A DNA stretch of 32,933 nucleotides. Source: a virus. The stretch is from positions 1 to 32,933 of IMG/VR virus record IMGVR_UViG_3300044825_001094; one strand, written 5' to 3'. A program made the position numbers and the translations under genes. Shown here in pieces: positions 1,671 to 32,933 of this stretch (position 1 is the stretch's first letter; each line of letters starts with the position of its first letter). A model generated the notes under the pieces. It made no database searches, was not told the DNA's origin, and worked only from the letters and a program-made list of their open reading frames with translations.

Positions 1671-3505
1671 CCCTTCTTTACCAGAGTAAAGCATTTACGG
1701 CTAACTCCACTATTGACCCCCCGATGCCTGGATCTGGAGGCGTCGGTGATGTTGGAACCGCAACTAACGGTAAGTATGATGTTGGTTATAACAATATCCG
1801 CTTTGGCACCTATGCGATGGCTACCAGAACGTTGGAGACAATTCGATTTGTCGACAATAGTCTTGGTGGTGAGCCTCAATGGGAAATCATTCTTGGGGCT
1901 GAGCCAAATAAAACTGCGCCTGTAGTTCGTAACGGCCCATATTCTGTAAAGTTTTACTTTAGACAAACTTCAACTGCATCAACGGTTACTCAGCCAATCA
2001 TGAAATTTATGAATGGTGCTACAACGCAATATTCTCTGGTTTCAGTTGAACAAACAAGGCCTGCGTTTTCTGGTCTTGGTGGTGGAGTGACAGCAATGTC
2101 GCCCGCAACAGGCATGTTCCGTTACGAACTACAGGTCGATCCTGCCGCATCTCCAAAGTGTACTTTGAATATTTATGTTGAAGACTCAACAACTGTTCAT
2201 CGGACACTTACTGCAAGCCCAACAGATGTGTCAATCGACCGTCTTGTTATTGGTCACTATATTTCTGGTAATTATTCCTCAAGCGAGGTTGTTTACTCAA
2301 ATATTGAGGTTTATGACACCTACAACTTTGATGGAAACGTAAATACACCGACCACAACACCATCGTATCCTACAAAATACAACTATAATCCATCAACTTT
2401 TAAAACTGACCCTCAAAATACTCTGGTTGCTGGTGTTGATTACACTGTACATGCCAACCTTAGCTACACCACCGCGGGCACGTTTAATCGGTTTCTAGAT
2501 CTTTATATTCCAACTGGAACCCCCCCTGCGGATGGTTGGCCAGTTGTTGTTTGGGCACACTCAGGATTCTTCACTAATGGTTCCAGAACAGATCTTCCAC
2601 CAGCTTGGCGAGATGATCTTATTTCTGCTGGGTATGCTGTAGCAACAGTTGAATACGTTCTATCAAACGTTACCGCTCTAGCGTATGACGAGTATGGCGG
2701 GGCTAGTAACCATGGCGGTCGTTATCCGTCGCATATTGTTGACTTTAAGCGTGCTTGCGCCTGGCTTCGTGATCAAACCACCTACAACATTGACGGGCTT
2801 CGAATGTTTTCTACTGGTTATTCGGCTGGTGGAAAAATTGCTTTGGATGCGGCGTCAACCAGGGATCTTTCTACTGACACTGTTGGTAATCCACTGAGTC
2901 TTCTAGCCTGCACAAGTGCTAGCCCGACAAAACCTTGGTCTGATGGGTATACTGGTCCGGACCCTATGTTTTTGGGGTGCCTTGTTTATTGCGCTCCAGT
3001 TGACATGGATCTTGCTAATGCTTGGGATCCAACTTACCCAACAAGCGGTAGTGTTATTAAACTCCTAGCTTACCGGGCCTTCCAAGGATTGACTGCAAAT
3101 GGAACACCGGCGCCAGCTATGCCACAACAGAACACTGCTTTACATATTGCAAACAATGCGGCAAATCTCTGCCCTATTGCGTATGTGAAAGGCGCATCCG
3201 ATTATCTAGTTCACTGGGAGCATGAAAATGCTCTTGCCGCAGCTATGAGTACTCATGCTGCATCAATTCCGGCGCCAGCAGCAGGGGCTAAATACACACG
3301 TATTGATTCCCCAAACAATCATCCGAAAGCTGCTGATGTTTATAGTGTGGATGACCTTCTTAATTGGATGAATCCTTTGCTTTCGGCAAGTTATCCTTAT
3401 ACTGGGCCAACCGTGAGCTACTATAATGGAACGACGGAAGTTACTGGCACTCTACATTATTACGATGGAACAACCGAGATTCCAGTCACCCTAGAAGTTT
3501 CATAG
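1667..3505 (+). CDS. Tail-associated alpha/beta-hydrolase (esterase)
   Basis: A 612-residue protein. Residues about 1-240 are a beta-rich, lectin-like region. From about 255 to 575 there is an alpha/beta-hydrolase of the carboxylesterase / feruloyl-esterase-like type: 'RFLDLYIPTG', the oxyanion strand 'WPVVVWAHSGFF', nucleophile elbow GYSAGG with Ser386, Asp512 in 'KGASDYLVHWEHE', and His552 in 'NNHPKAADVY'. The triad order and spacing fit an active enzyme. The C-terminus carries two copies of a 'YYNGTTEVTGTL / YYDGTTEIPVTL' repeat resembling the start of the gene at 4878. As a virion protein it probably removes ester groups (acyl or acetyl) from a host surface polymer or lipid during adsorption; the substrate is not visible. 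It overlaps the previous stop by four bases. Confidence 0.8.
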   Translation: MTLLYQSKAFTANSTIDPPMPGSGGVGDVGTATNGKYDVGYNNIRFGTYAMATRTLETIRFVDNSLGGEPQWEIILGAEPNKTAPVVRNGPYSVKFYFRQTSTASTVTQPIMKFMNGATTQYSLVSVEQTRPAFSGLGGGVTAMSPATGMFRYELQVDPAASPKCTLNIYVEDSTTVHRTLTASPTDVSIDRLVIGHYISGNYSSSEVVYSNIEVYDTYNFDGNVNTPTTTPSYPTKYNYNPSTFKTDPQNTLVAGVDYTVHANLSYTTAGTFNRFLDLYIPTGTPPADGWPVVVWAHSGFFTNGSRTDLPPAWRDDLISAGYAVATVEYVLSNVTALAYDEYGGASNHGGRYPSHIVDFKRACAWLRDQTTYNIDGLRMFSTGYSAGGKIALDAASTRDLSTDTVGNPLSLLACTSASPTKPWSDGYTGPDPMFLGCLVYCAPVDMDLANAWDPTYPTSGSVIKLLAYRAFQGLTANGTPAPAMPQQNTALHIANNAANLCPIAYVKGASDYLVHWEHENALAAAMSTHAASIPAPAAGAKYTRIDSPNNHPKAADVYSVDDLLNWMNPLLSASYPYTGPTVSYYNGTTEVTGTLHYYDGTTEIPVTLEVS

Positions 3506-15219: not shown

Positions 15220-16110
15220 ATGGCAGAACTGATCTGGGACGCTGATGGCGCCCGGAAATACGAAACCGGTGTAGATCGCGGCGTGCTCTACATCCCTGAT
15301 GGCGCTGGTGCATACACCACTGGCGTTCCGTGGAACGGCCTTGTGTCCGTTTCAGAAGCACCGTCTGGCGCTGAGGCCAATCCTCAGTACGCGGACAACT
15401 TCAAGTACCTGAACCTGTACTCCGCTGAGGAGTTTGGCGCAACCATCGAGGCATTCACTTACCCTGATGAGTTCGCTCAGTTTGATGGTATTGCCGAGCC
15501 CAAGACTGGCGTTTACGTTGGTCAGCAGTCTCGCGGTACTTTCGGTCTGTCCTACCGGACGAAGATCGGAAACGACATCGACGGCGACGATCATGGTTAC
15601 AAGCTTCACCTGGTCTACGGTTGCTCGGCTAGCCCTTCTGAGAAGGCCTACACGACGATCAACGACTCGCCTGAGGCAATTACCTTCAGCTGGGAGGTCA
15701 CCACGACTCCTGTTGCTGTTACTGGCCTGAAGCGCACGGCGATCATCACGATCGACTCCACCAAGGTCTCCCAGACCGACTGGACCGAGTTGACCAACCT
15801 CCTCTGGGGTAGTGGTGGCGGTTCCGCTCAGCTGCCCTCCGCCGACACGGTTATCGGGCTGTTCAACGTGGCTGCTCAGACTTCGGTCATCGCCAATGCC
15901 CCGACGTTCGTTTCGGGTACCGGTGTCATCACCATCGTGGCTACCACTGGTGTCCGTTACTACCGCGCCGATACCGGTGCTACGGTCAACCCTGGCGCAA
16001 TGGCCGCAATCCCTGCGGCAAGCACGCTGGTCATCCGGGCCGAAGCAGCCAGCAGCACCTACGTTCTGGATCCGCTGTCGGACGACTCCTGGTCGTTCAC
16101 GCGCCCTTGA
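15220..16110 (+). CDS. Major tail protein (tail tube)
   Basis: A 296-residue tube protein. The core (about 1-220) has 'LDRGVLY'-type ('VDRGVLYIPDG') and 'GLSYRTKIGNDIDGDDHGYK' segments followed by 'FSWEVTTTPVAVTG', typical of actinophage tube proteins. Residues about 226-296 form an added beta domain ('APTFVSGTGVITIVATTGV' ... 'DDSWSF') that closely resembles the capsid's C-terminal domain. The core is paralogous to the protein at 16693. Codons are strongly C-ending, as in the capsid gene. AGAAGGAGA precedes the start. The subunit polymerises around the tape measure to form the tail tube, with the extra domain probably on the outside. Confidence 0.9.
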   Translation: MAELIWDADGARKYETGVDRGVLYIPDGAGAYTTGVPWNGLVSVSEAPSGAEANPQYADNFKYLNLYSAEEFGATIEAFTYPDEFAQFDGIAEPKTGVYVGQQSRGTFGLSYRTKIGNDIDGDDHGYKLHLVYGCSASPSEKAYTTINDSPEAITFSWEVTTTPVAVTGLKRTAIITIDSTKVSQTDWTELTNLLWGSGGGSAQLPSADTVIGLFNVAAQTSVIANAPTFVSGTGVITIVATTGVRYYRADTGATVNPGAMAAIPAASTLVIRAEAASSTYVLDPLSDDSWSFTRP

Positions 16111-16137: not shown

Positions 16138-16680
16138 ATGCTTAAGATTGATGTGGATGGAGTTGAGTCATTCAACAATGAAACATCCGAGTTTACTACC
16201 GGCCCAGGGTTCACTCTGAGGTTCGAGCATTCTTTGGTCTCACTGTCAAAATGGGAGTCAAAACACAAAGTACCTTTCCTGAGCACAACAGACAAAACTC
16301 AGGAACAAATCATGGACTACTTGGGGTTCATGCTTCTCGACGATGTAGACCCAAGTTTACTCCTGTTTCTCAACGCGAGTCAGCTCAACTTGATTAACGA
16401 CTACATTGAATCTCCAGAATCAGCTACGACATTCGGACAGTTGCCTTCAGAGCAAGCCTATCGCGGAGAGATCATCACCGCAGAGTTGGTTTACTACTGG
16501 ATGGTTGCTTTCACGATTCCGTTTGAGTGTGAGACATGGCACATCAACCGATTGTTTGCCCTGGTCAAGATCTGTAACATCAAGAACAGCCCTGGGAAGT
16601 CCATGCCAAAGGCTGACATTGCACGACGCAACCGTGAGCTTAACGAACAACGAAAAGCTCAACTCGGAACTAGGGGATAA
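16138..16680 (+). CDS. Tail assembly chaperone
   Basis: A 180-residue acidic-helical protein with 'FEHSLVSLSKWESKHKVPFL' then 'STTDKTQEQIMDYL', a hallmark of tail assembly chaperones in many siphoviruses. These bind the tape measure protein and recruit tube subunits. Such genes usually produce a longer -1 frameshift product before the tape measure gene. I find no canonical slippery heptamer near its end, and the gene is followed not by a second chaperone frame but by a second tube paralog. GAGGAGACC supplies the ribosome site. Confidence 0.8.
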   Translation: MLKIDVDGVESFNNETSEFTTGPGFTLRFEHSLVSLSKWESKHKVPFLSTTDKTQEQIMDYLGFMLLDDVDPSLLLFLNASQLNLINDYIESPESATTFGQLPSEQAYRGEIITAELVYYWMVAFTIPFECETWHINRLFALVKICNIKNSPGKSMPKADIARRNRELNEQRKAQLGTRG

Positions 16681-16692
16681 CAAGGAGGGTAG

Positions 16693-17502
16693 ATGGCAAC
16701 GCTAACGTGGGACGAAGTTGGAACCAGAACGTTTCAGTCCGGTCTAGACCGTGGAGTTCTTTACTTCCCCGACGGACGAGTGTATCCATGGAATGGCCTC
16801 ACCAACGTCCAAAAGAACTTTGGTCAGAGTGCAGAACCAATTCACTTTGACGGCGTGAAGATTGCTGACATTGTGAGTACGGAGGGCTTTTCTGCCACCA
16901 TCTCAGCAATCACTTACCCGGAGGAATTCGAGGAGTTCTACGGTCACGCAGAACTTCGCAGTGGTGTGTACCTTGGTGATCAGCCATCAAAGACGTTTAC
17001 TCTGGCGTACAGAACCAAAGTTGGTAATGACGTCGCTGGTGATTCGGCTGGGTACAAGATTCACATCATCTACAACGCATCGGCAGTTCCATCAGATCAC
17101 TCATATTCTACGGTCTCTGATGATCCTGAGTTGAGTGAGTTTGAATGGGAGCTAACAGCAACTCCTGTCCCGCTGACAAACTACAGGCCTTCTGCGCACA
17201 TCACGTTGGATTCAACGAAGATGGTTCCATCGCTGATGAATTACATCGAGAGTCAGCTGTATGGGACGTCTACTACAGCGCCGATCATGATCCCGCTTCA
17301 AGGACTGGTTAACCTCATCAACGAGTGGTATCTGCTTCTTGTTGTTGACAACGAAGATGGGACATTCACTGTGTCCACGGATTATCCAGAGTACATTGAG
17401 ATGATCAACGACACAACGTACGACATCCACAGCGCAACCATCACGTGGATTGACGCAAACACATACGACCTCACTGGAACGAAAGACATCCCAGAACCCT
17501 AA
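16693..17502 (+). CDS. Second major tail protein paralog
   Basis: A 269-residue protein colinear with the main tail tube protein: 'TWDEVGTRTFQSGLDRGVLY', 'YPEEFEEFYGHAELRSGVYL', 'TLAYRTKVGNDVAGDSAGYK' and 'FEWELTATPVPLT' all align with 15220-16110. The C-terminal domain differs: 'VVDNEDGTFTVSTDY' onward is a short beta domain found at the ends of other phage virion proteins. Codon use is ordinary, without the C-ending bias of the first copy, so it is probably made in lower amounts. It may form a distinct ring at one end of the tube or a minor tube subunit. The paralogy is seen; the specialised role is inferred. Confidence 0.8.
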   Translation: MATLTWDEVGTRTFQSGLDRGVLYFPDGRVYPWNGLTNVQKNFGQSAEPIHFDGVKIADIVSTEGFSATISAITYPEEFEEFYGHAELRSGVYLGDQPSKTFTLAYRTKVGNDVAGDSAGYKIHIIYNASAVPSDHSYSTVSDDPELSEFEWELTATPVPLTNYRPSAHITLDSTKMVPSLMNYIESQLYGTSTTAPIMIPLQGLVNLINEWYLLLVVDNEDGTFTVSTDYPEYIEMINDTTYDIHSATITWIDANTYDLTGTKDIPEP

Positions 17503-18185: not shown

Positions 18186-18563
18186 GTGTCTTTTGGATTC
18201 ACAACTCACGGAGACTTCAAAGTCATTGAGACTTTCTTGAAGCGGGTTTCCACTGGGGACCTCTACTCTCAGCTTGATTCGTACGGGCAGCAGGGCGTTG
18301 AAGCTCTAAGGAAAGCCACACCAAAACGAAGTAGTGAAACAGCCGAAAGCTGGGGCTACCGAGTTATCAAGAGCAAGACCAACCCTGGGATTGAGTGGTA
18401 CAACACCCACACCAATCGAGGAGCTAACATCGCGATTCTCATTCAGTATGGTCACGGTACTGGCACTGGCGGTTACGTTCAGGGGATTGACTACATCAAC
18501 CCGGCGATGCGTCCCCTATTCGAGAAGATCGCAGACGACATCTGGAAGGAGGTCACCAAATGA
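18186..18563 (+). CDS. HK97 gp10-like tail completion protein
   Basis: A 125-residue protein with the pattern of HK97 gp10-like neck proteins: 'GVEALRKATPKRSSETAESW' then 'IQYGHGTGTGGYVQGIDYIN' and 'AMRPLFEKIADDIWKEV'. GTG 18186 is the likely start, with GGGAG at 18174-18178. In most phages this gene is among the neck genes after the capsid, but here it lies directly before the tape measure and overlaps it by ATGA. The family call is fairly firm; whether it acts at the neck or in tail assembly here is open. Confidence 0.7.
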   Translation: MSFGFTTHGDFKVIETFLKRVSTGDLYSQLDSYGQQGVEALRKATPKRSSETAESWGYRVIKSKTNPGIEWYNTHTNRGANIAILIQYGHGTGTGGYVQGIDYINPAMRPLFEKIADDIWKEVTK

Positions 18564-21500
18564 GTGGATCAGTTGACAACAAAGTCGTTAAGATGACGTT
18601 TGATAACTCATCTTTCCAGAAGAACGTCGCGGACACAATGTCCACGCTCGACAAACTCAAAGCCGCACTGAACTTTGATGGCGCTAAGAAGGGTATGAGT
18701 ACCCTTGGCGCAGAAGCGGGTAAGGTCAATCTGGGGCCGATTCATACCCAGATCGAAAGTGTCAATGCTGGCTTCCTGGCTATGGCTACAGTAGCCGCAA
18801 CAGTGCTTTCGGGGATCACCTCAAAGGCTCTGGCTGCCGGTGGCTCCATGGTCAAAGCACTTTCTCTTGAGCCAGTCATGGACGGCTTCAAAGAGTACGA
18901 AGTCAACATGGAGTCTATCCAGACCATCTTGGCTAATACAAAGGGTGACGGGACCAACCTCGAACAGGTTAATGCCGCTCTTGACGAGATGAACACATAC
19001 TCGGACAAGACCATCTACAACTTCTCGCAGATGTCAAAGAACGTCTCGAAGTTTACCGCGGCTGGTATTGACCTGGAAACTTCAGTCTCCTCGATCAAGG
19101 GTCTGGCGAACGTTGCCGCTCTTACCGGCGTGAAGAACGAAGAAGCTCAGCGAGCAATGTTCCAGTTGTCACAGGCTTTGAGCTCTGGCACGGTCAAGCT
19201 CAGGGACTGGGTTTCTGTTGAGCAGACAGGCGGTATGGCTGGTGAGCAGTTCCAGAGCGCACTTGTCACGACAGGTATGGCTCTAGGCGAGCTTACTCAG
19301 ATGCCGGTTGGCTCTACGTTTGAGGACTGGACCAACAAGAACGGTAAGTTCCGTGACTCGCTTGAGTCCGGCTGGCTGACCGCAGACGTCCTCACGACCA
19401 CTCTTGGGGCTATTGCTGGAGACCTCGACGCAATCGAGTTGTCCGACATGGGCTTCACTGATGAGCAGGTCGTCAAGATGGTTGAGTTGGGGCAGACCGC
19501 TCTGGCTTCAGCTCAAGACGTCAAGACTGCTACTCAGCTTTTCCAGACAATCAAGGAGACCATCGGTTCTGGTTGGGCTAAGTCCTTCCAGACTGTGATT
19601 GGTAACTTCGTCGAGGCTAAAGCCCTCTTCACAAACCTCAACAACTACATCGGCGGCTTCATCGCTAAGAACGCTGAGGCCCGTAACAAGGTCCTTGCTG
19701 AGTGGAAGTGGTTTGGTGGTAGAGAGCAGCTGATGGGCGGCCTGATGGCCTCTCTGGGGGCTCTACGGAGCATCCTGAAGCCTGTTGGTGATGCGTTCCG
19801 TGAAGTCTTCCCCAAGAAGACCGCAGTAGACCTCTACAACATCACAAAAGCATTCCGAGAGTTTGCCGAACGGATGATCTTGAGTGAAGATGGGGCTAAA
19901 CGCCTCAAGCAGATCTTCACTGGTCTGTTCTCCATATTCTCGATTGCCATTGCCATCGTCAAGGGGCTCTACAGCGTCTTCACGTCGTTGGTTTCGGTTT
20001 TCGTCGAAATCATCGGTGGCTTCGGAGGCGCAGCTGGCTCCGCGGGAGATTTCATCTCAAAGCTTCGAGAGATGCTCGTCGATGAAGGCGGTATCGCGAA
20101 GTTCTTCAAGATGATCACTGACAACATCGCTAAACTTGGTGATGCAGTCAAGTGGGTCAAGGAGAAGCTCAGCAACGTCTTCACCTTCGGTAAGGGTGGG
20201 GGCGGTAAGGGCGGAGACCCTGGTGCTTTTGCTGGGATCGTCGAGAAACTCAAGAACCTCTTCGAGCGGCTCGGTGAGATTGCCAATGAGATTGGCAAGA
20301 AGATCTCTACGGCCAAGAACGCTATTGGTGACTTCTTCGGGGCTATTGGCGATGGAGCCAGCAGTGCTGGTGAAGGTATCGCGAATGGTGTTGAGGGCTT
20401 CATCCAGAAGATCACCGATGCTCTGAATTCTGATGCATTTGCTCCGGCTCTGGCCGCGGTAGGCGTCGGTATATTTGGGGCGATCGGTATGGGCATCCGT
20501 AGCTTCCTCAAGAGTGGTCAGGGCGTCTTTGACTCTCTGAAAGAGGTCATGGCTCAGATCGGTACCAGTGCTGCTGATGTTCTTGATAGCGTCAGTGGCG
20601 CAGTCAAGTCCTTCCAGAACAACATTCGAGCGGATACGCTTCGCAAGATTGCTGTTGCTATGGCCATCCTTACTGTCTCTTTGATCGCTCTGTCGTTCAT
20701 TGATGGTAAGAAGTTGGCCAAGGCTCTTGCTGGTGTGGCTGCTGGTATGGGCGCTTTGGTTGCTTCGCTAGCCCTACTCTCAAAGATCGAAACAAACCCC
20801 GTCAAGATGACCGCCCTTGCAGTGTCAATGAGCCTCGTTGCTGTAGCAGCGGCTCTCCTAGGTGTAGCTGTGACCATATTCTCCAAGATGAATCTTGGTG
20901 AGATGGCTAAGGGTCTACTTGGCGTCTTTGTTGCTATGGACATCATGGCTCGAGCAGCACAGGTCTTCAGTAAGAACAACAGCAGCTTCATTGCCACTGG
21001 GCTCAGTCTCATCGTCATGTCCGCGGCGCTTTGGATCTTTGCTCAGGCAATCAAGATGTTCAACGCCATTGATGCTGGGGTTCTCCTCAAGGGGATGCTT
21101 ACCATCGCGGTTATTCTTGGTGGGTTTGCTCTATTCACCAACTTGGTGGATAAAGACGAGCTCATGAAGTTGTCCATTGCCTTCGGTTTGATGGTGATCA
21201 GCCTTCATGGAATGAAGCGTGTCATCGAGCAGATGGCTGCTATTCCAGCAGGAGAATTGATCAAGGGTCTGCTTGCGGTTGCTGCCTCACTTACGATCAT
21301 TGTTATTGCGGTCAAGAATCTCCCTGAAAAGAGCGAGATGACCAAGGCAGGCGCAGGCTTGCTTCTGATCGCAGCGTCTCTTTGGATCGTAGCTGAAGCT
21401 GTGACTAAGCTGTCCCAAATCAACCTGGTTGGTCTTGGCGCTGCTTTGTTCTCAGTTCTCTTCATCATGACAATTATGGTGAACGCAGCTAACCTCATGA

Positions 21501-23284
21501 CCACGGCAATGCCTGGTGCTGCAGCTATGGTAGTCATGGCTGGGGCTCTTTGGTTGCTAGCTGAAGTAATCGAGAAAATCGGGTCGATCCCATTTGGTGA
21601 TCTACTCAAGGGTCTTCTTGGTCTTGCTGGGATCCTGCTCATCCTTGGTCTTGCCGCAGCTGCACTAGTTGCTTTCCCGCTTCTTGGTGTTGCTCTAGAA
21701 GTCATTGGTACCTCGCTTATTCTCATTGGTGTAGGCTTCGCGGCCTTTGGCGCAGGTATCTACTTGGCTGCTAAGGGTCTTGAGACCTTCATTGCCCTTG
21801 GTGATGAAGCTGGACCTGCTCTCGTAGAGATGCTATCGAATGTTGCATCAGTCGTCCCAGAGATGGCTAAGGCGTTCGGTGAGGCATTCGTCGAGTTTGT
21901 CAAGGTGATTGCTGATAAGGCTGGCGAGATCGTTGACGCGATGGGTGAACTTCTTACTAAGATCTTGGATAAGATCATTGAGCTGGCGCCTAAGTTTGGT
22001 GAAGCGATGAACGCCATCATGACCGTTATTCTCGACGTCCTCGAGGCTCAGGGTCCTCGTATGATCGAAGTGGGTCTTATGCTGCTTACGAATTTCCTTA
22101 CTGGTGTTCGTGACAATATGGAACAACTAACAACACTTGGCCTTGAGATTCTGACGAACTTCATAAACGGTCTCACGGCCGGTCTTCCGAATCTTGCCAC
22201 GTCAATCACGTTCTTTATCCAGGTGATGGCAGAGCAGTTCCGCCTTAATATTCCGATTATTATTCAGGCGGGCGTCGATATGTTAGTGGCCTTCTTGAAC
22301 GGAGTTGCCTTGGCGATTCCACAGATTGGCGCGGCTATTGGAAACGTCATTGTGGCACTAGTCACAGCTGTCGGCAATGAGGGCGGTCGTATTGCTGCCG
22401 CAGGCGTTAATGCGTTGGCTCAGTTTATATTTGGAATTCTTGGCGAGCTTCCCGGAATTGTGACAACCGCGGGTCAGATGATTGAAGACCTCGTTACTGC
22501 GATTGGCGACGAGGCTAAAGATGTCGCTACTGCTGGTAAAGACACGGCCATCGAATTCCTTGATGGTTTGGTCGATGACACAATTGACTTCATCAATAAA
22601 GCAGGTAAGCTCTTGATCAAGCTCCTTGATGGGATTGAATCGGCTATTCGTCGATATTCTCCTCAGATCAGGGAGAAGGGTAAGGGTATTGCTGGCGCGT
22701 TGATCGACGGCATTACTGGTGGTCTTGGCGACAACGTAGGAAAGGTTGTCAGTAAGATCAAGTCGGTTGCTGGGGATGCTATTGGTGCTGCACTCAAGGT
22801 GTTTGGTATCAACTCTCCGTCTCGAGTGTTCCGAAAGATTGGTCGCGGACTTAACGAGGGCTTGGTCCTCGGTATTCAGGACGACACCAGTAAGTCTGTC
22901 GGAGCAGTCAAGGGTATGGCTAACTCCACCATCGTCGCTTTCGGGCAGGCTATGAGTGGTATCGACCTCAGCAACATGGACGAGTTCAACCCCACAATCA
23001 CACCTGTTCTTGACCTCACACGAGTCAGTCAAGATGCCCGTGGTCTTGCAGGAATGCTAGGGACGGCACCAATGACGGCAAGTCTGTCTGCTCAGCAGGC
23101 ACGATATTTGTCGGGCGCTCAGACTTCCTCTTCGGCTACTCCGGATGCTACGGCTACTGGTGGACCCACTGAGATCAAGTTCGAGCAGAACATCTACGCC
23201 CCGGAGGCCCTCTCCGCGGACGACATCTACCGCAGCACTAGAGGCCAGATTGCAATGGCGAAGGAGGAACTCCAAATCCCATGA
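18560..23284 (+). CDS. Tape measure protein
   Basis: A 1574-residue protein, the largest in the window. Residues about 105-265 are the phage tape-measure domain ('YEVNMESIQTILANT', 'MNTYSDKTIYNFSQMSKNV', 'KFTAAGIDLETSVSSIKGLA'). Residues about 290-560 are amphipathic helices. Residues about 712-1070 are highly hydrophobic and built from about six roughly 60-residue repeats, probably membrane-inserting during DNA delivery. The C-terminal part has 'FGINSPSRVFRKIGRGLNEG', a common tape-measure motif. At about 1.5 angstrom per residue the tail would be roughly 240 nm. The gene is coupled to the one before it and to Dit (ATGA at both ends). Confidence 0.95.
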   Translation: MSGSVDNKVVKMTFDNSSFQKNVADTMSTLDKLKAALNFDGAKKGMSTLGAEAGKVNLGPIHTQIESVNAGFLAMATVAATVLSGITSKALAAGGSMVKALSLEPVMDGFKEYEVNMESIQTILANTKGDGTNLEQVNAALDEMNTYSDKTIYNFSQMSKNVSKFTAAGIDLETSVSSIKGLANVAALTGVKNEEAQRAMFQLSQALSSGTVKLRDWVSVEQTGGMAGEQFQSALVTTGMALGELTQMPVGSTFEDWTNKNGKFRDSLESGWLTADVLTTTLGAIAGDLDAIELSDMGFTDEQVVKMVELGQTALASAQDVKTATQLFQTIKETIGSGWAKSFQTVIGNFVEAKALFTNLNNYIGGFIAKNAEARNKVLAEWKWFGGREQLMGGLMASLGALRSILKPVGDAFREVFPKKTAVDLYNITKAFREFAERMILSEDGAKRLKQIFTGLFSIFSIAIAIVKGLYSVFTSLVSVFVEIIGGFGGAAGSAGDFISKLREMLVDEGGIAKFFKMITDNIAKLGDAVKWVKEKLSNVFTFGKGGGGKGGDPGAFAGIVEKLKNLFERLGEIANEIGKKISTAKNAIGDFFGAIGDGASSAGEGIANGVEGFIQKITDALNSDAFAPALAAVGVGIFGAIGMGIRSFLKSGQGVFDSLKEVMAQIGTSAADVLDSVSGAVKSFQNNIRADTLRKIAVAMAILTVSLIALSFIDGKKLAKALAGVAAGMGALVASLALLSKIETNPVKMTALAVSMSLVAVAAALLGVAVTIFSKMNLGEMAKGLLGVFVAMDIMARAAQVFSKNNSSFIATGLSLIVMSAALWIFAQAIKMFNAIDAGVLLKGMLTIAVILGGFALFTNLVDKDELMKLSIAFGLMVISLHGMKRVIEQMAAIPAGELIKGLLAVAASLTIIVIAVKNLPEKSEMTKAGAGLLLIAASLWIVAEAVTKLSQINLVGLGAALFSVLFIMTIMVNAANLMTTAMPGAAAMVVMAGALWLLAEVIEKIGSIPFGDLLKGLLGLAGILLILGLAAAALVAFPLLGVALEVIGTSLILIGVGFAAFGAGIYLAAKGLETFIALGDEAGPALVEMLSNVASVVPEMAKAFGEAFVEFVKVIADKAGEIVDAMGELLTKILDKIIELAPKFGEAMNAIMTVILDVLEAQGPRMIEVGLMLLTNFLTGVRDNMEQLTTLGLEILTNFINGLTAGLPNLATSITFFIQVMAEQFRLNIPIIIQAGVDMLVAFLNGVALAIPQIGAAIGNVIVALVTAVGNEGGRIAAAGVNALAQFIFGILGELPGIVTTAGQMIEDLVTAIGDEAKDVATAGKDTAIEFLDGLVDDTIDFINKAGKLLIKLLDGIESAIRRYSPQIREKGKGIAGALIDGITGGLGDNVGKVVSKIKSVAGDAIGAALKVFGINSPSRVFRKIGRGLNEGLVLGIQDDTSKSVGAVKGMANSTIVAFGQAMSGIDLSNMDEFNPTITPVLDLTRVSQDARGLAGMLGTAPMTASLSAQQARYLSGAQTSSSATPDATATGGPTEIKFEQNIYAPEALSADDIYRSTRGQIAMAKEELQIP
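20696..21780 (+). repeat. About six degenerate 60-residue repeats in tape measure
   Basis: At the protein level a unit recurs at residues near 712, 775, 835, 893, 953 and 1008. Each opens with a short turn and 'G..L.KGLL.v...L' (for example 'IPAGELIKGLLAVAASLTII', 'IPFGDLLKGLLGLAGILLIL'), followed by a second hydrophobic helix. Spacing is 55-63 residues. DNA-level identity is low, so the repeats are old. Confidence 0.6.
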
Positions 23285-26228: not shown

Positions 26229-26253
26229 ACAATACACCGCCTATAATGGAGAC
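26221..26253 (+). promoter_or_regulatory. Promoter-like repeat, copy 1
   Basis: TACACCGCCTATAATGGAGA at 26234-26253 contains a perfect -10 hexamer (TATAAT, 26242-26247). It is the first of three copies of the same element in this part of the window. No good -35 box is seen. The expected start point is about 20 bases before the gene at 26272, giving a short leader with its ribosome site. Confidence 0.65.
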
Positions 26254-26684: not shown

Positions 26685-26717
26685 GCCCGCAAGATTTACA
26701 CCTCCTGTAATGGAGAG
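26685..26717 (+). promoter_or_regulatory. Promoter-like repeat, copy 2
   Basis: This 33-base block differs from copy 3 at only a few positions: GCCCGCA, then TTTACACCT, then TAATGGAGAG. The -10 reads TGTAAT (26706-26711). It points to a region with no recognisable gene before copy 3, so its product, if any, would be a short RNA. Confidence 0.6.
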
Positions 26718-26753
26718 CAAACTAGCTTTCCAACTACCAAAAGGAAGAGAATA

Positions 26754-26769
26754 CTCAGGGGCCCCTGAG
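26754..26769. repeat. Perfect 16-bp palindrome
   Basis: CTCAGGGGCCCCTGAG is a perfect palindrome. As RNA it folds into a CTCAGG stem with a GGCC loop. A T-rich stretch (CTTTCTTTTT) follows about eight bases later, so it may be a weak terminator for copy 2 transcripts. As DNA it could be a dimeric protein site. Confidence 0.6.
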
Positions 26770-26787
26770 CAATGACTTTCTTTTTCG

Positions 26788-26820
26788 GCCCGCAGGTTTT
26801 ACACCTGCTATAATGGAGAG
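26788..26820 (+). promoter_or_regulatory. Promoter-like repeat, copy 3, with operator-like dyad
   Basis: The block contains an extended -10, TGCTATAAT, with TATAAT at 26809-26814. Directly upstream is an inverted repeat, GCAGGT-TTTAC-ACCTGC (26792-26808), that abuts the -10 and could be a repressor or activator site. It is the likely promoter of the membrane/DUF6353 cassette and the helicase gene beyond. Confidence 0.7.
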
Positions 26821-26907: not shown

Positions 26908-26955
26908 ATGGCTCGAAAAGTGCAAATCTACCAACCAATAGGAGAAGCATACATC

Positions 26956-27075
26956 ATGAGCAACAGCTCGAATAACTACGGGTGCGGCATGTTCCTTCTG
27001 GACTGCTTGCTGACACTCGTCACCGGTGGTCTGTGGCTGATCTGGGTCTTCGTGCGGGAGATGCGTAAGCGATGA
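26956..27075 (+). CDS. Tiny membrane protein
   Basis: A 39-residue protein, 'MSNSSNNYGCGMFLLDC' then 'LLTLVTGGLWLIWVFVREMR', with one transmembrane segment and a basic end. I recall small proteins with this 'LT..TGGLWLIW.FVREM' pattern in actinophages. The frame can also start at ATG 26908 (55 residues), with GGAGG four bases before it; ATG 26956 has AGGAGA ten bases upstream and starts at the familiar part. It overlaps the next gene by ATGA and is the first gene after promoter copy 3. Confidence 0.6.
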   Translation: MSNSSNNYGCGMFLLDCLLTLVTGGLWLIWVFVREMRKR

Positions 27076-27806
27076 TCTCAGACTTCATCCGAAAGACCAA
27101 CAAGTACACCCACCGTCATTCGCCAGGCATCATGACTGCGATTGGCGTCGCGGGGGTAATCACCACTGCATATTTGACGGCAACGGCTTCCTTTAAGGCT
27201 GCCAGAGCCATCGACGCTGTCCCTGATGAGTCGGATGACCCAACTCAGCGACTCAAGGACAATGCTTCACTGATCTGGAAGTTCTACATTCCACCAGTGA
27301 CTACCGGCGTTGCCACGATTGGTGCTATCGCTTACGCAAGTCGACTTGGCTCGAAGCGTACGGCAGCAGCAGTCAGCGCATACGCCATCACAGAACGGGC
27401 CTTTGCCAACTACCGCGACAAGGTCGTTGACGAGATTGGTGCACACAAAGAGCAGGTCATTCGTGACGATATTGCTCGTGAGGTTGTGAACCAGAAGTCG
27501 TCGACGGAGATCATCGTCGCTGGTCGAGGCGAGGTGTTGTGCTGTGAACTGTACACACGGCGATATTTCATGTGCGACATGGAACAGCTTCGTCGTGCAG
27601 CAAACGACATCAACGCGCTGATCAACAACGAGTTGTATGTCAGTCTGGACGAGTTCTACGACATGATTGGGCTTGACGCAACAGCTCACTCAAGTGAACT
27701 TGGATGGGATTCGGACAAGCTCATGGATCTCGAGTTCTCGACGGTCCTTTCCCCTGATGGTCGACCCTGCTTGGCATTCGACTACAACTACATCAAGCCG
27801 ATCTAA
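27072..27806 (+). CDS. DUF6353 family membrane protein A
   Basis: A 244-residue protein of the DUF6353 phage family. Two hydrophobic segments (about 19-40, 'GIMTAIGVAGVITTAYLTAT', and 72-90, 'YIPPVTTGVATIGAIAYAS') are separated by a short polar loop. A helical stretch with 'KRTAAAVSAYAITERAFANY' follows, then a beta-rich C-terminal domain with 'LYVSLDEFYDMIGLD', 'LGWDSD' and the end 'FDYNYIKPI'. The function is unknown. The C-terminal domain recurs in the genes at 28426 and 29087. It is coupled to the tiny membrane gene upstream. Probably an inner-membrane protein with a cytoplasmic C-terminal domain. Confidence 0.75.
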   Translation: MISDFIRKTNKYTHRHSPGIMTAIGVAGVITTAYLTATASFKAARAIDAVPDESDDPTQRLKDNASLIWKFYIPPVTTGVATIGAIAYASRLGSKRTAAAVSAYAITERAFANYRDKVVDEIGAHKEQVIRDDIAREVVNQKSSTEIIVAGRGEVLCCELYTRRYFMCDMEQLRRAANDINALINNELYVSLDEFYDMIGLDATAHSSELGWDSDKLMDLEFSTVLSPDGRPCLAFDYNYIKPI

Positions 27807-27825
27807 CTACTTCACGGAGGCACAC

Positions 27826-28005
27826 ATGTCAAAACTCTTCCAGTTCTACAAGGAGGATCCAGATCCGATGAGTCATCAGCTGGCTAAGCTAGCGTTGACC
27901 ACATTCGGTTCCTGGTTGACCATCAAGCTCATCGAAACCGCGTACAACGCACACTTTGGTCTTGGCGACAAGGCTACCGACAACACGAAGGATTTCAATG
28001 CTTAA
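27826..28005 (+). CDS. Small hypothetical protein, possible membrane segment
   Basis: A 59-residue protein, 'MSKLFQFYKEDPDPMSHQ' then 'LAKLALTTFGSWLTIKLIET', ending 'KATDNTKDFNA'. Residues about 20-42 form a moderately hydrophobic helix, either a weak transmembrane or an amphipathic segment. ATG 27826 has CGGAGG at 27815-27820; the longer upstream frame is a shadow of the previous gene. It overlaps the next gene by eight bases. The function is unknown, and it belongs to the DUF6353 cassette by position. Confidence 0.6.
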   Translation: MSKLFQFYKEDPDPMSHQLAKLALTTFGSWLTIKLIETAYNAHFGLGDKATDNTKDFNA

Positions 28006-28429
28006 GCGATCGATCACCTACACCGACTTCGAGGACCGTGAGGTCACTGAGGTTTTCTACTTCAACATCTCGAAGCCTGAGCTCATTGACATGGAGGTTG
28101 AGCACGAGGGCGGATACGTTGCGGCAATCCAGCGCATCATCGACGCAAATGACCCGAAGCAGCTCGTCGCCGAGTTCAAGAAGCTCATCTTGCAGGCATA
28201 CGGCATCAAGTCCGACGATGGCAAGAAGTTCATGAAGAGTGACGCTCTCCGCGAAGAGTTCATTCACCATGCCGCTTACCAGACGCTCTGGATGGAGTTG
28301 GCTAGCAACGAGAAGGCAGCTTCGGAGTTCGTGATTGGCGTGCTTCCGGCGGATCTCTCAGCCGCTCGAGACGAGGACAAGCCTGTCACGCAGACGAGCC
28401 CTGCGCCCGCATTGGAGGCCGAAGGATGA
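27998..28429 (+). CDS. Conserved phage protein, soluble
   Basis: A 143-residue protein. Seen are 'MLKRSITYTDFEDREVTEVF' then 'YFNISKPELIDMEVEHEGGY', 'AAIQRIIDANDPKQLVAEFK' and 'SDALREEFIHHAAYQTLWME', with a disordered acidic end. I recall this pattern from many phages of Gram-positive hosts without an experimentally fixed role. The shape (an N-terminal beta hairpin, then helices) is reminiscent of tail assembly chaperones, but the place in the genome does not fit. ATG 27998 has GAAGG just upstream. The stop overlaps the next start (ATGA). Confidence 0.6.
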   Translation: MLKRSITYTDFEDREVTEVFYFNISKPELIDMEVEHEGGYVAAIQRIIDANDPKQLVAEFKKLILQAYGIKSDDGKKFMKSDALREEFIHHAAYQTLWMELASNEKAASEFVIGVLPADLSAARDEDKPVTQTSPAPALEAEG

Positions 28430-29073
28430 CGACGGACTACCAGGGTAACAGCAAGAAGAGCAAGGCGGAACACCCTGCTTCTGGGGAACCTGCTCCCGAG
28501 AAGAAGCATGTCGAGAAGGCTGCTCTGCAGAGCAAGGTCATCGCTCGAAAGAAGCCTCTTGGTCTTCGGATCAAGGAGGTCATCTTCGGTGGTGAGGTGA
28601 ACTCTGCGGCACGCTATATTGGCGCCGAGGTGCTCTTGCCGGCCTTCAGGAACTTGCTTGTCGATGCCACCACAAAGGGTATCGAGAGGATGGTGTACGG
28701 AGACTCTGCATATTCTCGGCCTCGCAATGCAACAGCCGAGTACAGGCCGAAGGTCACGTACCACAACCCCATCAACCAAGGTGGACCACCTCGTAGGCCT
28801 GGAAATCTTCCAGATCAGCCAAGCCCGAGGCCACGTCGTGACGATACCGAGATCATCTTCGGTACACATAGCGACGCCGCCCTGGTTCTCGAGCGTCTTC
28901 AGGACGTCATTGACCAGTACCAAGTTACCTCCATGGGTGACCTCAATGAAATTGTCGGGCTTCCGACCAACCACATGGACAACAAGTGGGGTTGGGAAAA
29001 CCTTCGATACGCAGAGATCCGTCAGACCCGCGATGGGTTTGTTCTGAATCTCCCACCAGCACAGCCGATCTGA
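28426..29073 (+). CDS. Cassette protein with shared C-terminal GW domain
   Basis: A 215-residue protein. The N-terminal 45 residues are Lys/Glu/Pro-rich and probably disordered. Residues about 50-85 are helical with Ala/Leu-rich faces ('SAARYIGAEVLLPAFRNLLV'). 'GIERMVYGDSAYSRPR' and a Pro/Arg-rich linker come next. Residues about 140-215 form a small domain: 'AALVLERLQDVIDQYQ', 'VTSMGDLNEIVGL', 'NKWGWENLRYAEIRQTRDGF' and 'VLNLPPAQPI'. This layout matches the ends of both DUF6353 proteins. I recall similar proteins in Firmicutes phages. No catalytic residues are recognised. It may be the soluble or peripheral partner of the membrane proteins. Confidence 0.65.
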   Translation: MTTDYQGNSKKSKAEHPASGEPAPEKKHVEKAALQSKVIARKKPLGLRIKEVIFGGEVNSAARYIGAEVLLPAFRNLLVDATTKGIERMVYGDSAYSRPRNATAEYRPKVTYHNPINQGGPPRRPGNLPDQPSPRPRRDDTEIIFGTHSDAALVLERLQDVIDQYQVTSMGDLNEIVGLPTNHMDNKWGWENLRYAEIRQTRDGFVLNLPPAQPI

Positions 29074-29086
29074 TACGAGGAGTACA

Positions 29087-29980
29087 ATGCGATTTGTCCC
29101 TAACACCATCACGAGGTCCATCGCGACCTCCCTACTCAAGACCAAGAAGAACTCACCACAGGTCTTCTTCGGCGTCGGGATTGTCGGCGTTCTGACTGGC
29201 GCAGTCATGGCGTGCAAGGCTACTCTCGAGTTGCCTGAAACTCTGGAGGACTTTGAGGAGGAACTCACTGAGCTCAAGGAGCAGAAAGAGCGTCGCGTAG
29301 AGAGTTTCGAGGACGACTACACGGAGGCGGACTTCAAGAAGGACGTTGCGTACGTCTACGGGAAGAACGTCGCCAAGGTCGCTCGGCTGTATGCCCCTGC
29401 TGTTGCAGTTGGAGGTGTCGCAATTGGTTGCCTGACAGGCTCTCACGTGACCCTACAGCGTCGTAATGCTGCAACGACCGCGGCGTTTGCTACCGTCGCT
29501 ACGGCGTATGACGAGTACCGTAAGCGCGTCACATCGGAGCTGGGTAAAGAGCGCGAGCTCGATATTTACCACGCTGCTGAGAACCGCATCATCCACACGC
29601 CTGACGGCACCACAGACGTCATCAAGGTCGTGGATCCGAACCGGTGGTCCCCGTATGCTCGGGTCTTTGACGAAAGCTGCTCTGCTTGGGAGAAGGGTGT
29701 CGGTGTCAACCGCATCTACGTCCAGGCCGCGCAGAACTACTTCAACTCGAGGCTCCAAGTACGAGGTCACGTCTGGCTGAACGAGGTGTATGACCACTTC
29801 GGATTCGAGCACACCCAGCAGGGCGCAATCGTTGGGTGGCTCATTGGCGGAGACGGCGACAACTACATCGACTTCGGCATGTTTGACGCGTACAACGCCG
29901 ACTTTGTCAACGGAGCAGAGAGGTCCATCATCCTCGACTTCAATGTCGACGGAATCATCTTCGATAAGCTTGGGAGGTAG
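29087..29980 (+). CDS. DUF6353 family membrane protein B
   Basis: A 297-residue second DUF6353 member. The first hydrophobic segment is at about 24-43 ('SPQVFFGVGIVGVLTGAVMA'). A long charged helix (about 50-95, rich in Glu/Lys) is inserted before the second segment at 104-124 ('LYAPAVAVGGVAIGCLTGSH'). It then has 'RRNAATTAAFATVATAYDEY' and a C-terminal domain with 'HVWLNEVYDHFGFE', 'VGWLIGGDG' and 'SIILDFNVDGI'. The layout equals the paralog at 27072, with an added helix and a longer C-terminal domain. GAGGAG precedes the start. The two paralogs may form a hetero-complex in the membrane; this is inference. Confidence 0.75.
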   Translation: MRFVPNTITRSIATSLLKTKKNSPQVFFGVGIVGVLTGAVMACKATLELPETLEDFEEELTELKEQKERRVESFEDDYTEADFKKDVAYVYGKNVAKVARLYAPAVAVGGVAIGCLTGSHVTLQRRNAATTAAFATVATAYDEYRKRVTSELGKERELDIYHAAENRIIHTPDGTTDVIKVVDPNRWSPYARVFDESCSAWEKGVGVNRIYVQAAQNYFNSRLQVRGHVWLNEVYDHFGFEHTQQGAIVGWLIGGDGDNYIDFGMFDAYNADFVNGAERSIILDFNVDGIIFDKLGR

Positions 29981-29982
29981 TC

Positions 29983-30849
29983 ATGTTGAATCATATTCGT
30001 GGCTATGCTACGAGTTTGTCCACGAGGCAGAAAGGGGTCGCGGCTGGCGTGTTCTGCGCTGGCTTCGGCCTCGGCATCCTCATTGGGCTTCCACGTAAGC
30101 CGAAGGTGATCGTCGTTGAGCCGGATCCAAACGTACATCAGAATCTCACGGACGTCAAGCTTCACGAGGTTTCTATGGATCTTGAGCCGGGTACGCCTGG
30201 CTCAGTGATCTTAGACATCAGCAATCGTCTTCCGGATCCCATGGAAGACAACGTGCTGGTTCCGATGCTTGACGAGGAAACCCTCAACCAGGTAGGGATT
30301 GTCACTTCTCCCCCGGAGAATGACCCACGCCTCATTGATGTTGACCTTGACCGCCTCAGGGCACGTGATGCCTTGATCGAGGAACACGGGTTTGCAGAGG
30401 GCATGCGTCTTTACCAGGAGCAGTACATGTCTGAGGAACCACAGCGACAGTCCATCTTCAGCGGAGAGGATGATATTTGGGACACCGAGGTTGAGGAGCA
30501 ATCCCGTTCAACCGAAGCACCCTACGTCATCCACAAAGACGAGTTCTGGCGCGAAGAGATGGGATACTCGCAAACCACGCTAACCTACTACGTCGGTGAT
30601 GATATTCTCGTCGATCAGGAGGACGTGCCTGTCTACAACCACTCGGAAGCTACGGGTGAGTTGAAGTTTGGGCATGGTTCTGGCGATCAGAATGTTGTCT
30701 ACATCCGAAACGACAGGCTCCGAGCTGAATACGAGATCATTCGTGATCGAGGCAGCTACGAGCAGGTCGTGTTGGGTCTGCAGGCTGAAGAGGACCTTGA
30801 ACGGTCTTCGCTGAAACACTCACTCACCCGCTTTCGACCGGATGATTGA
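29983..30849 (+). CDS. N-terminally anchored cassette protein
   Basis: A 288-residue protein with one transmembrane helix at about 18-36 ('GVAAGVFCAGFGLGILIGLP'). A long acidic, probably disordered middle follows. The compact C-terminal domain (about 185-288) reads 'PYVIHKDEFWREEMGYSQTT', 'LTYYVGDDILVDQEDVPVYN', 'NVVYIRNDRLRAEYEIIRDR' and 'GSYEQVVLGLQ'. I recall this C-terminal domain in phage cassettes with DUF6353 proteins; no function is assigned. GGGAGGTAG lies before the start. The acidic linker suggests that the C-terminal domain acts in the cytoplasm while tethered to the membrane. Confidence 0.65.
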   Translation: MLNHIRGYATSLSTRQKGVAAGVFCAGFGLGILIGLPRKPKVIVVEPDPNVHQNLTDVKLHEVSMDLEPGTPGSVILDISNRLPDPMEDNVLVPMLDEETLNQVGIVTSPPENDPRLIDVDLDRLRARDALIEEHGFAEGMRLYQEQYMSEEPQRQSIFSGEDDIWDTEVEEQSRSTEAPYVIHKDEFWREEMGYSQTTLTYYVGDDILVDQEDVPVYNHSEATGELKFGHGSGDQNVVYIRNDRLRAEYEIIRDRGSYEQVVLGLQAEEDLERSSLKHSLTRFRPDD

Positions 30850-30851
30850 TC

Positions 30852-31376
30852 ATGAACCAGCCAGTGGAAGCGATGTACTTCGATTGGCTCTACGCAAAGG
30901 TGATGCTGTCGGACCAACCGGCATTGTCATATTTTCGTCTGATTCAGACACTCTATGAAACTGAGTTCATCTGGCTCATCGTCGGTGACGACAACCGAGC
31001 TGAAGACGGACTCGAGCTTCGTAAAGAGTTCATCCTGGCCGCAAACCGGGAAGACATCAGTCTATCAGACTTTTCGTCTGGCTGCTCAGTTTTGGAGATG
31101 ATGATAGCATTTACCAAACGAGCAGAGTTCCAGACAGACATTCGTCCAAGTCGGTGGTTCTGGGAGTTCTTGAGCAATCTTGAGCTCTCAGACCACTACG
31201 ACGACAACTTCGACCACGAGAAGGTGGCTGACGTACTGTACAACTTTGTGTGGAGGACATACGGCTACAGTGGTAAAGGAGGGATGTTTCCTCTCACTAA
31301 CGCCGAAACGGATCAAAGGCAAGTTGAGATTTGGTATCAGTTCTGTGCCTATCTCATCGAGAAGCACTACTTCTGA
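30852..31376 (+). CDS. Conserved phage protein, soluble
   Basis: A 174-residue protein, rich in aromatic residues: 'YFDWLYAKVM', 'SGCSVLEMMIAFTKRAEFQT', 'RWFWEFLSNLELSDHYDDNF', 'SGKGGMFPLTNAETDQRQVE' and 'IWYQFCAYLIEKHYF'. I recall this pattern, especially 'GK-GG-FP', 'R-VEIWYQ', from phages of Gram-positive hosts, where it remains uncharacterised. ATG 30852 is preferred to TTG 30846, which overlaps the previous stop; neither has a strong ribosome site. It lies between the membrane cassette and the helicase gene and could link them. Confidence 0.65.
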   Translation: MNQPVEAMYFDWLYAKVMLSDQPALSYFRLIQTLYETEFIWLIVGDDNRAEDGLELRKEFILAANREDISLSDFSSGCSVLEMMIAFTKRAEFQTDIRPSRWFWEFLSNLELSDHYDDNFDHEKVADVLYNFVWRTYGYSGKGGMFPLTNAETDQRQVEIWYQFCAYLIEKHYF

Positions 31377-31387
31377 AGGGAGGTTCT

Positions 31388-32933
31388 GTGGATTTTTACA
31401 ATGTCGTGGTAAGAGAGAAGAAAGACGGTACTTCGCAGATCCGCCCTGACTTCAAGATCGGTCGGTCCAAGGACCTGATGACTCGCGGTGGCTCGTTCTA
31501 CGCCATCTGGGATGAGGAAGCAGGTCTTTGGTCTACCGATATTTACGATGTGCAGCGACTCATCGATGCCGATCTGTTCCGGCATAAGGAGGAACTAGAG
31601 AAGAAGCACTCACAGGTCTTCACAGTAGCAACGTTGGAGTCTAACTCCACAAAGCTGTGGGATGAGTTCCAGCGCTTCATTCGGAACAGCGGTAACAACA
31701 GTCACAACCTGGACGAGAAGTTGACCTTCGCGAACACGGAAGTGAAGAAGAGCGACCACGTCAGTCGTAGGCTTCCTTATTCTCTGCACCCTGGAGATTG
31801 TAGTGCATGGGATCAGATTGTAGGGACGCTATATTCTGAGGAGGAGCGTGAGAAGATTGAATGGGCAATCGGAGCAGTTGTCTCAGGAGACTCGAAACAC
31901 ATCCAGAAGTTCCTTGTGTTTTATGGCCCTCCCGGCAGTGGAAAGTCCACGATTCTCAACATCATCCAAAAGCTGTTTCATGGTTACACGGCTGTCTTTG
32001 ATGCTAGGGAGCTTGCCGGTAACAATAATGCCTTTGCCACAGCCGCCTTTAAGTCAAATCCGCTCGTTGCAATCCAGCATGACGGAGACCTCTCCAGAAT
32101 CTACGACAACACCAAGCTGAACTCAATCGTTGCGCACGAGACGATGACAGTGAACGAGAAGTACAGGATGCCTTTCGAGGCGAAGTCCAACGCCTTCTTG
32201 TTCATGGGAACGAACCTTCCAGTTAAGATCACTGATGCCAAGTCCGGTATCATTCGGAGGCTCATCGATGTTGTTCCTACTCAACGGACGATTGATCATG
32301 ATACCTATCATGTACTCATGGATCGAATCGATTTCGAGCTCGGCGCAATTGCTCATCATTGTGTACAACGATACCTATCCCTCGGGTCGAATCATTATAG
32401 TGGTTATCGGCCCACGGAGATGATGCTTCAGACCGACGTCTTCTACAACTATGTTGAGGCTAACTTCGACATATTCAAGGCAGAAGATGGCGTTTCGCTC
32501 AAGAGGGCTTGGGTCCTCTACAAAGAGTTCTGTTCTGACACTGGCATCGAGAAGATGCTGCCTCAGTACAAGATTCGTGAGCAGCTGAAGGACTACTTCG
32601 ACGAATTCCTGGATAGGACCACTGTTGACGGTAAGGAAGTGCGCAGCTACTACAAGGGTTTCAAACATCTTGGCCCTGCTCCACCGAGGTCTCAAATGCC
32701 TGTAAAGACAGATGAGCCATATTCGATCGAGCTTGGTGAGAACCCTTCAGTCTTCGATGAGATGTTCGCCACACAACCTGCTCAGTACGCCAAAGAAGAT
32801 GGCACTCCTGAGAAGAAGTGGGAGAACGTCACAACGCAGCTTCGCGATCTGGACACTTCCAAACTTCACTACGTCAAAGTCCCTCGGGACCATATTGTGA
32901 TTGATTTCGATCTCACAGATGAAGACGGTGTGA
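31388..32933 (+). CDS. SF3 helicase, probable helicase-primase (3' truncated)
   Basis: The frame is open from GTG 31388 to the window edge, at least 515 residues. GGGAGG at 31378-31383 marks the start. Residues about 135-300 form a superfamily 3 (D5/P4-like) helicase: Walker A GPPGSGKST (180-188), Walker B region 'LVAIQHDGDLSRIYD', sensor 'FLFMGTNLP', and arginine finger 'GIIRRLIDVVP'. A helical region follows. Near the edge 'HIVIDFDLTDEDG' (Asp506, Asp508) fits the hhhDhD first motif of archaeo-eukaryotic-type primases. The protein would thus carry helicase first and primase second, the reverse of P4-type proteins. It would unwind and prime phage DNA. It is the first replication gene after the membrane cassette. 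Confidence 0.88.
   Translation, partial: MDFYNVVVREKKDGTSQIRPDFKIGRSKDLMTRGGSFYAIWDEEAGLWSTDIYDVQRLIDADLFRHKEELEKKHSQVFTVATLESNSTKLWDEFQRFIRNSGNNSHNLDEKLTFANTEVKKSDHVSRRLPYSLHPGDCSAWDQIVGTLYSEEEREKIEWAIGAVVSGDSKHIQKFLVFYGPPGSGKSTILNIIQKLFHGYTAVFDARELAGNNNAFATAAFKSNPLVAIQHDGDLSRIYDNTKLNSIVAHETMTVNEKYRMPFEAKSNAFLFMGTNLPVKITDAKSGIIRRLIDVVPTQRTIDHDTYHVLMDRIDFELGAIAHHCVQRYLSLGSNHYSGYRPTEMMLQTDVFYNYVEANFDIFKAEDGVSLKRAWVLYKEFCSDTGIEKMLPQYKIREQLKDYFDEFLDRTTVDGKEVRSYYKGFKHLGPAPPRSQMPVKTDEPYSIELGENPSVFDEMFATQPAQYAKEDGTPEKKWENVTTQLRDLDTSKLHYVKVPRDHIVIDFDLTDEDGV

Follow-up and report, generated by a model that had tools for sequence, protein, structure and literature searches.

Probable relocation of a tail assembly chaperone gene into a conserved DUF6353 cassette preceding a GP55-type phage replicase

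The window analyzed here is a stretch of 32,933 bases of viral DNA (positions 1 to 32,933 of IMG/VR record IMGVR_UViG_3300044825_001094). Packaging, capsid, and tail genes fill its first 26 kb and are followed by an eight-gene cassette and the start of a replicase gene. The cassette, which we name after the DUF6353 proteins it encodes, is our subject, together with the likely origin of its fourth gene, g4, in the tail gene cluster. It consists of eight consecutive plus-strand open reading frames (ORFs) at 26956-31376 that overlap or lie at most 20 nucleotides apart, which agrees with the tight packing described in the original prediction, made from the sequence before any database search.

The first gene of the cassette, g1 (26956..27075; alternative start at 26908), encodes a tiny membrane protein of 39 amino acids with one hydrophobic segment (residues 10-33); its homologs were found in 62 of 90 loci, mostly just 5' of g2. 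Two paralogs of the DUF6353 family (Pfam accession PF19880, curated cut-off 25 bits) are encoded by g2 (27072..27806; 244 amino acids, E 8e-70, 235.7 bits; also phrog_2152) and g6 (29087..29980; 297 amino acids, E 5e-66, 223.3 bits). Between them lie g3 (27826..28005; 59 amino acids), which has no clear membrane segment in the prediction and is limited to close relatives (19/90 loci), g4 (27998..28429; 143 amino acids), and g5 (28426..29073; phrog_4079), which encodes a soluble protein of 215 amino acids whose C-terminal motif is common to DUF6353. The protein encoded by g7 (29983..30849; 288 amino acids, phrog_4695) has a single N-terminal anchor (segment 17-37), a long acidic linker (56 aspartate or glutamate versus 27 lysine or arginine residues), and a conserved C-terminal part, and g8 (30852..31376; phrog_4678) encodes a soluble protein of 174 amino acids. 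The tiny membrane protein, the DUF6353 pair, and the anchored acidic protein had all been anticipated. The cassette had also been placed directly before a helicase gene: a plus-strand gene, g9, does adjoin it (31388..32933; GTG start), but what it encodes is the N-terminal part of a GP55-type primase/polymerase replicase, cut off by the window edge.

Contrary to the statement that no member of the cassette has an assigned function, g4 belongs to the Pfam family PF23803, termed Phage_TAC_17 (E 1e-38; 133.6 bits against a cut-off of 27), a family of tail assembly chaperones. The same family was detected in gene 54 of phage FortCran (E 4e-42, 144.7 bits), which, together with gene 56 of phage Pherobrine, is a named counterpart of g4. 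The tail assembly chaperone is normally among the most fixed genes of long-tailed phages, and its usual slot is between the major tail protein and the tape measure gene; in the window, g4 lies in the DUF6353 cassette instead. The slot itself can be recognized. Its left edge is the first major tail protein gene (15220..16110, plus strand; phrog_2645, E 3e-106), and its right edge is a gene that we call X (16138..16680, plus strand; phrog_4338), which in Firmicutes phages lies 3' of the chaperone. In Lactococcus phages 1706 and CHPC971, Faecalibacterium phage FP_oengus, D_HF5_2C from saliva, and the two fecal records MT835495 and MT835616, a single g4 homolog is located between the major tail protein and X, with the neck protein and tape measure genes 3' of X. 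The major tail protein, X, and the neck protein of these tail-slot phages are homologous to those of the window by BLAST, and g4 itself is 45% identical to the tail-slot protein gp76 of FP_oengus, with the same N-terminal domain kept. In the window and in Pherobrine, by contrast, X is found directly 3' of the major tail protein, the slot having closed up.

We next mapped PF23803, X, and the major tail protein in 41 records. A single chaperone locus was found in 40 of them (one matched in two pieces). It was no more than 99 bp from X in 21 of these 40 genomes, which are Firmicutes relatives, and 11.6-34.6 kb from X in the other 19, from the window's clade, and in no genome (0/40) did it occupy both positions. 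The exception among the 41, record G018 (L148/L199-L202), was not used, because it probably joins two prophages: this 73.8-kb record has the cassette and replicase at one end and, in addition, a second, unrelated polymerase, a helicase-primase, and packaging genes. For the same reason it was dropped as a candidate example of the cassette combined with a different tail module. Taken together, the family match, the vacated slot, and the mutually exclusive positions make it very probable that g4 is this phage's only tail assembly chaperone gene, relocated from the tail cluster and still serving tail assembly.

It could be argued instead that g4 derives from a tail chaperone but has become a chaperone or adaptor for the membrane proteins of the cassette, X alone having been left to do the tail work; the presence of g4 in the cassette throughout the actinophage-type clade would suit such a role. 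However, X adjoins g4 in every tail-slot genome and so is no replacement of it, and the two proteins have no profile similarity to each other (a sequence search of the PDB with X found no relative either). The retained N-terminal domain and the identity to the FP_oengus tail-slot protein also speak for an unchanged function, and the cassette core occurs without g4 in Firmicutes phages. A change of function of this kind thus appears improbable.

The relocation of g4 appears to be a single event. In a quick tree of 141 replicase N-terminal parts, rooted by midpoint only, the sequences from genomes with g4 in the cassette form one clade of 98, plus one sequence on a very long branch (L097) whose other cassette genes are closest to that clade. 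A tree uniting all 99 has a likelihood above that of the free tree (p-AU 0.82), and for this reason a single relocation, in the ancestor of the window's clade, would account for the data and fits the tree. Since the tree is midpoint rooted, the direction of the presumed move, out of the tail cluster and into the cassette, is judged from the sister groups and from how widely the tail position is distributed.

Chaperones of the lambda type are joined to the next gene by a programmed frameshift. No such coupling connects the g4 family to X: across 27 tail-slot loci, the frame relation between the chaperone and X is mixed (same, +1, and -1), X often opens only past the stop codon of the chaperone, and in the window the two genes lie far apart, so that there is no programmed frameshift of the lambda G/GT type. 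A frameshift fusion of g4 with g5, hinted at by their -1 overlap in the window, was considered and rejected, as these genes lie approximately 0.4-1 kb apart in many relatives. The lack of frameshift coupling is what would have made the move possible; this chaperone family appears to have moved once and stayed moved. It also fits earlier failures to find the chaperone or its frameshift. The tail assembly chaperone was not identified in any of 56 genomes of actinophage cluster DJ, whose authors asked whether it is located elsewhere or whether the tails are formed by another mechanism (PMC12859696), and the chaperone frameshift was not found in the cluster AW phage Powelldog (PMC12760985). The missing chaperone of cluster DJ now has a candidate with a name: gene 54 in FortCran and gene 56 in Pherobrine, corresponding to 27998-28429 in the window. 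Although the family name is already in databases, no paper among those searched links the family to the vacated slot or to the reports of missing chaperones; both the naming of the missing tail chaperone and the proposal that it moved are new.

The predicted structure of g4 (AlphaFold, AF2; pLDDT 90.6) is a beta hairpin followed by helices. Foldseek found no match for this model in the PDB. When 286 top chains were realigned to it with VIA-align, four reached a Z value of at least 2, namely 5ir0 (3.8), YqbN (3klu, 2.4), 2ob9 (2.2), which is the tail assembly chaperone of HK97, and a designed protein (2.0). These values are all low and are of note only because so short a list includes known chaperones. 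YqbN presumably represents the XkdN-like chaperone group of defective Bacillus prophages. In a library of viral structures, the best matches were members of the g4 family itself, two of which are already named tail assembly chaperone in UniProt. A PDB sequence search with g4 gave only short matches to APC15 (E 0.02-0.14), which were rejected.

The remaining genes belong to a conserved phage module that precedes one type of replicase in phages of Gram-positive bacteria. Its replicase, g9, matches phrog_4210 (E 9e-223; profile positions 1-532 of 1304, as the gene runs past the window end) and is 34% identical to gp55 of Lactococcus phage 1706 across the N-terminal 515 amino acids; its relatives are annotated as DNA primase/polymerase. 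By itself, GP55 of 1706 acts in vitro as helicase, primase, polymerase, and exonuclease and is thus a four-in-one replicase (PMC12205980). In a tblastn search of 50,697 phage records, which include GenBank and RefSeq duplicates, so that the counts are not independent, the replicase was matched in 253 records, g5 in 247, g6 and g8 in 238 each, and g4 in 229. The same named groups recurred for all of them, namely phages of Arthrobacter, Gordonia, Streptomyces, Rhodococcus, Curtobacterium, Microbacterium, and Faecalibacterium, along with phages from human-associated samples. The 1706-type Lactococcus phages gave matches to the replicase and g5 and, when FP_oengus supplied the query, to the chaperone, g6 and g8 being too divergent there for tblastn.

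We also collected two independent sets of 80 metaviral loci, one anchored on g8 and the other on the replicase, the second with 1706 GP55 as its first sequence; 75 of the former and 64 of the latter that had enough upstream DNA were scored (n = 139). Profile searches found g5, DUF6353, g7, and g8 all present in 75/75 and 58/64 of these loci, respectively. The four genes keep this order in every locus with the full core (133/133, i.e., 75/75 and 58/58), immediately 5' of a GP55-type replicase. In contigs of bacterial genomes, a replicase follows g8 in 64 of the 65 loci with enough downstream DNA; the sole exception, in Allobaculum (L270, 8983-10706), has two g8-like ORFs, a DUF6353 match, a rearranged g7, and no detected replicase. 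Thus, the expected joint recurrence of several members among phages with Gram-positive hosts is borne out much more strongly than it had been put (133/139 metaviral loci in constant order) and goes far beyond chance, and lack of co-occurrence, named at the time as a reason to abandon the idea, was not observed.

With regard to earlier knowledge, no paper on DUF6353 was found in the literature searched. On the other hand, annotators of the ReqiPepy6 GenBank record had noted that gp067, gp069, and gp072 resemble genes of Lactococcus phage 1706. The view of the cassette as an uncharacterized candidate new system is wrong for g4, a probable relocated chaperone, and, given this record, too strong for DUF6353 as such; what is new is the strictness and extent of the replicase linkage, together with a fusion of an anchor with g8.

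This fusion is found in the 1706 lineage, where in one protein (gp53, with counterparts in CHPC971 and L099) an N-terminal anchor and a linker are joined to a region that aligns with g8 (110 columns; hhalign score 54.7, whereas the best of 50 shuffles scored 21.8), which argues that g7 and g8 work together. An N-terminal anchor is present in 138 of 158 g7 members, and positive charge follows the anchor in 110 of them and precedes it in 8, so the acidic part is probably cytoplasmic. The model of g6 (AF2 pLDDT 90.6, pTM 0.54) has two long helices arranged as a hairpin, with predicted membrane segments at 24-47 and 98-116, and an alpha/beta C-terminal domain; the flanking charges follow a positive-inside pattern that places both ends of DUF6353 in the cytoplasm in 124 of 156 members. 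A search with the full DUF6353 fold retrieved only coiled coils and helical bundles, and therefore we claim no fold for the hairpin; macro-domain matches of g6 in the PDB sequence search (E 0.03-0.05) were rejected, as they cover a helical stretch. Finally, a conserved GW marks a C-terminal motif that g5 has in common with both DUF6353 proteins (hhalign probability 88% and 64%, with reciprocal hidden Markov model matches), which suggests a common interaction surface, the motif being only suggestive because the DUF6353 model was built iteratively and may include one g5 sequence.

These observations can be assembled into an explanation in two parts, to which we assign an overall probability of about 0.6: a relocated chaperone on the one hand and a membrane core that docks the replicase on the other. 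In the first part, g4 would chaperone the tape measure protein during tail assembly, its gene having left the slot next to X in a single move and joined the DUF6353 cassette; that the moved copy continues to function in this way is our inference. In the second part, the two DUF6353 proteins, g5, g7, and g8 would assemble at the cytoplasmic side of the membrane into a complex for docking or organizing the GP55-type replicase. DUF6353 would be the two-pass base of this complex, with the C-terminal domain in the cytoplasm; g7 would be an anchor whose acidic tether holds the soluble partner g8; and g5 would join through the motif that it has in common with the DUF6353 C-terminal domain. Docking or organizing the replicase is our best guess, given that the replicase invariably lies 3' of the core and that the soluble parts of the core appear to be cytoplasmic and at the membrane. 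As GP55 is active alone, the core would affect location or regulation rather than catalysis. A conserved membrane complex for replication, as had been proposed, is therefore the best reading of the core; at the same time, it depends on synteny, predicted topology, and one fusion, and we put it at slightly less than an even chance.

Several points weigh against this explanation. Concerning g4, the name Phage_TAC_17 is itself an annotation, X could be a second chaperone, and the fold matches are weak (all Z values below 4). Concerning the core, synteny is not interaction, no sequence or fold relative of DUF6353, g7, or g8 was found in the PDB, and 1706 GP55 works in vitro, which makes any such complex dispensable for catalysis (PMC12205980).

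The core might also be co-inherited with the replicase as one transcription unit, with no physical link between the products. Phage replication genes often stay together, and many relatives carry insertions between g2, g4, and g5, including HNH endonuclease genes, the version in the window being compact. Yet four core genes keep their order beside the replicase over a very wide range, and g8 became fused to an anchor in one lineage, which leaves mere co-inheritance unlikely. Still less probable, in our estimation, is a role of the core as morphogenesis or ejection factors at the membrane that the chaperone joined as a working partner. Such a role would explain why roughly half of the sampled genomes have a tail protein gene within the cassette; in the other half, however, the core is the same with the chaperone located among the tail genes, and the core is always 5' of the replicase, not of a structural gene. 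The small membrane protein g1 and the membrane proteins encoded mid-genome might bring to mind host takeover or superinfection exclusion, both of which had been raised originally. However, typical exclusion genes vary between close relatives, whereas this core is invariant in phages that infect several bacterial phyla and is linked to a single replicase, and a PADLOC search returned chance-level matches only (best E 0.0067 over 62 residues); we consider such a function very doubtful and the suggestion unsupported.

Returning to the replicase-docking core, its almost exceptionless inheritance with a biochemically characterized replicase makes its members strong candidates for the missing cellular partners of that enzyme. 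More tentatively still, DUF6353, g5, g7, and g8 might constitute a membrane replication platform that recruits GP55-type replicases, an unrecognized accessory system spanning a very large phage group from gut and soil, one clade of which would have moved its chaperone into the same transcription unit.

The cassette was predicted to have one probable promoter, which is unproven: no sigma-70-type match was found upstream of it, only 22-nucleotide repeats. Three near-identical plus-strand copies of this promoter-like element, TTTACACCNNNTRTAATGGAGA, share TTTACACC, three bases, and TRTAATGGAGA; no copies were expected by chance (shuffles). Copy 1 (26231..26252; two mismatches) also precedes the preceding gene, at 26272, copy 2 (26695..26716) is upstream of the cassette, and copy 3 (26798..26819) is nearest to it. 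The element is possibly a phage-specific early promoter. Among other loci it was seen once (L025), so we regard it as local and rejected it as a shared phage promoter. A near-perfect palindrome, CTCAGGGGCCCCTGAG, at 26752-26771 between two of these elements could be an operator or a terminator.

Elsewhere in the window, the large terminase (8191), portal (10491), capsid-protease (12531), and tail terminator (14851) genes precede the first major tail protein. A second major tail protein gene (16693-17502) follows X, and after it come a neck-like protein gene (18186) and a long ORF (18560-23284) assigned as the putative tape measure gene by size and position. The two major tail proteins on either side of X are 44% identical; the tail-slot relatives mostly have one, and two related major tail proteins around X have likewise been reported for cluster DJ phages. 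In the virion gene region, residues 277-400 of a 612-amino-acid protein (1667-3505) form an alpha/beta hydrolase domain of the BD-FAE esterase type. In FP_oengus (L008), a protein of 925 amino acids, gp55 (28591-31365), is annotated as an RNA-dependent RNA polymerase and is encoded beside an exonuclease gene, and Streptomyces phage RosaAsantewaa has an 876-amino-acid protein with another annotation at the matching place; proteins of this type are possibly a phage RNA polymerase common to the group.

How does this locus compare with known systems? The small membrane proteins p16.7 and p1 of phage phi29 are thought to position DNA replication at the membrane. The proposed membrane placing of replication, with predicted anchors in the cassette, is what the two systems have in common, and they are not known to be related in sequence or fold; the cassette differs in comprising several proteins and in its type of replicase. 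Compared with tail assembly chaperones (lambda gpG/gpGT, the HK97 protein 2ob9, and the family PF23803), g4 is alike in its PF23803 match and size, and its relatives occupy the slot that follows the major tail protein and precedes the tape measure gene. It differs in having no frameshift product and, in this clade, in being found 11.6-34.6 kb away from the tail genes, in a replication-linked cassette. The closest parallel is Lactococcus phage 1706, where gp43 corresponds to g5, gp51 to DUF6353, and GP55 to the replicase, in identical order, and where gp53, an anchor with a g8-like domain, replaces the separate g7 and g8 of the window. Unlike the window, 1706 was found to have a single DUF6353 protein, and its chaperone, gp15, is still in the tail cluster.

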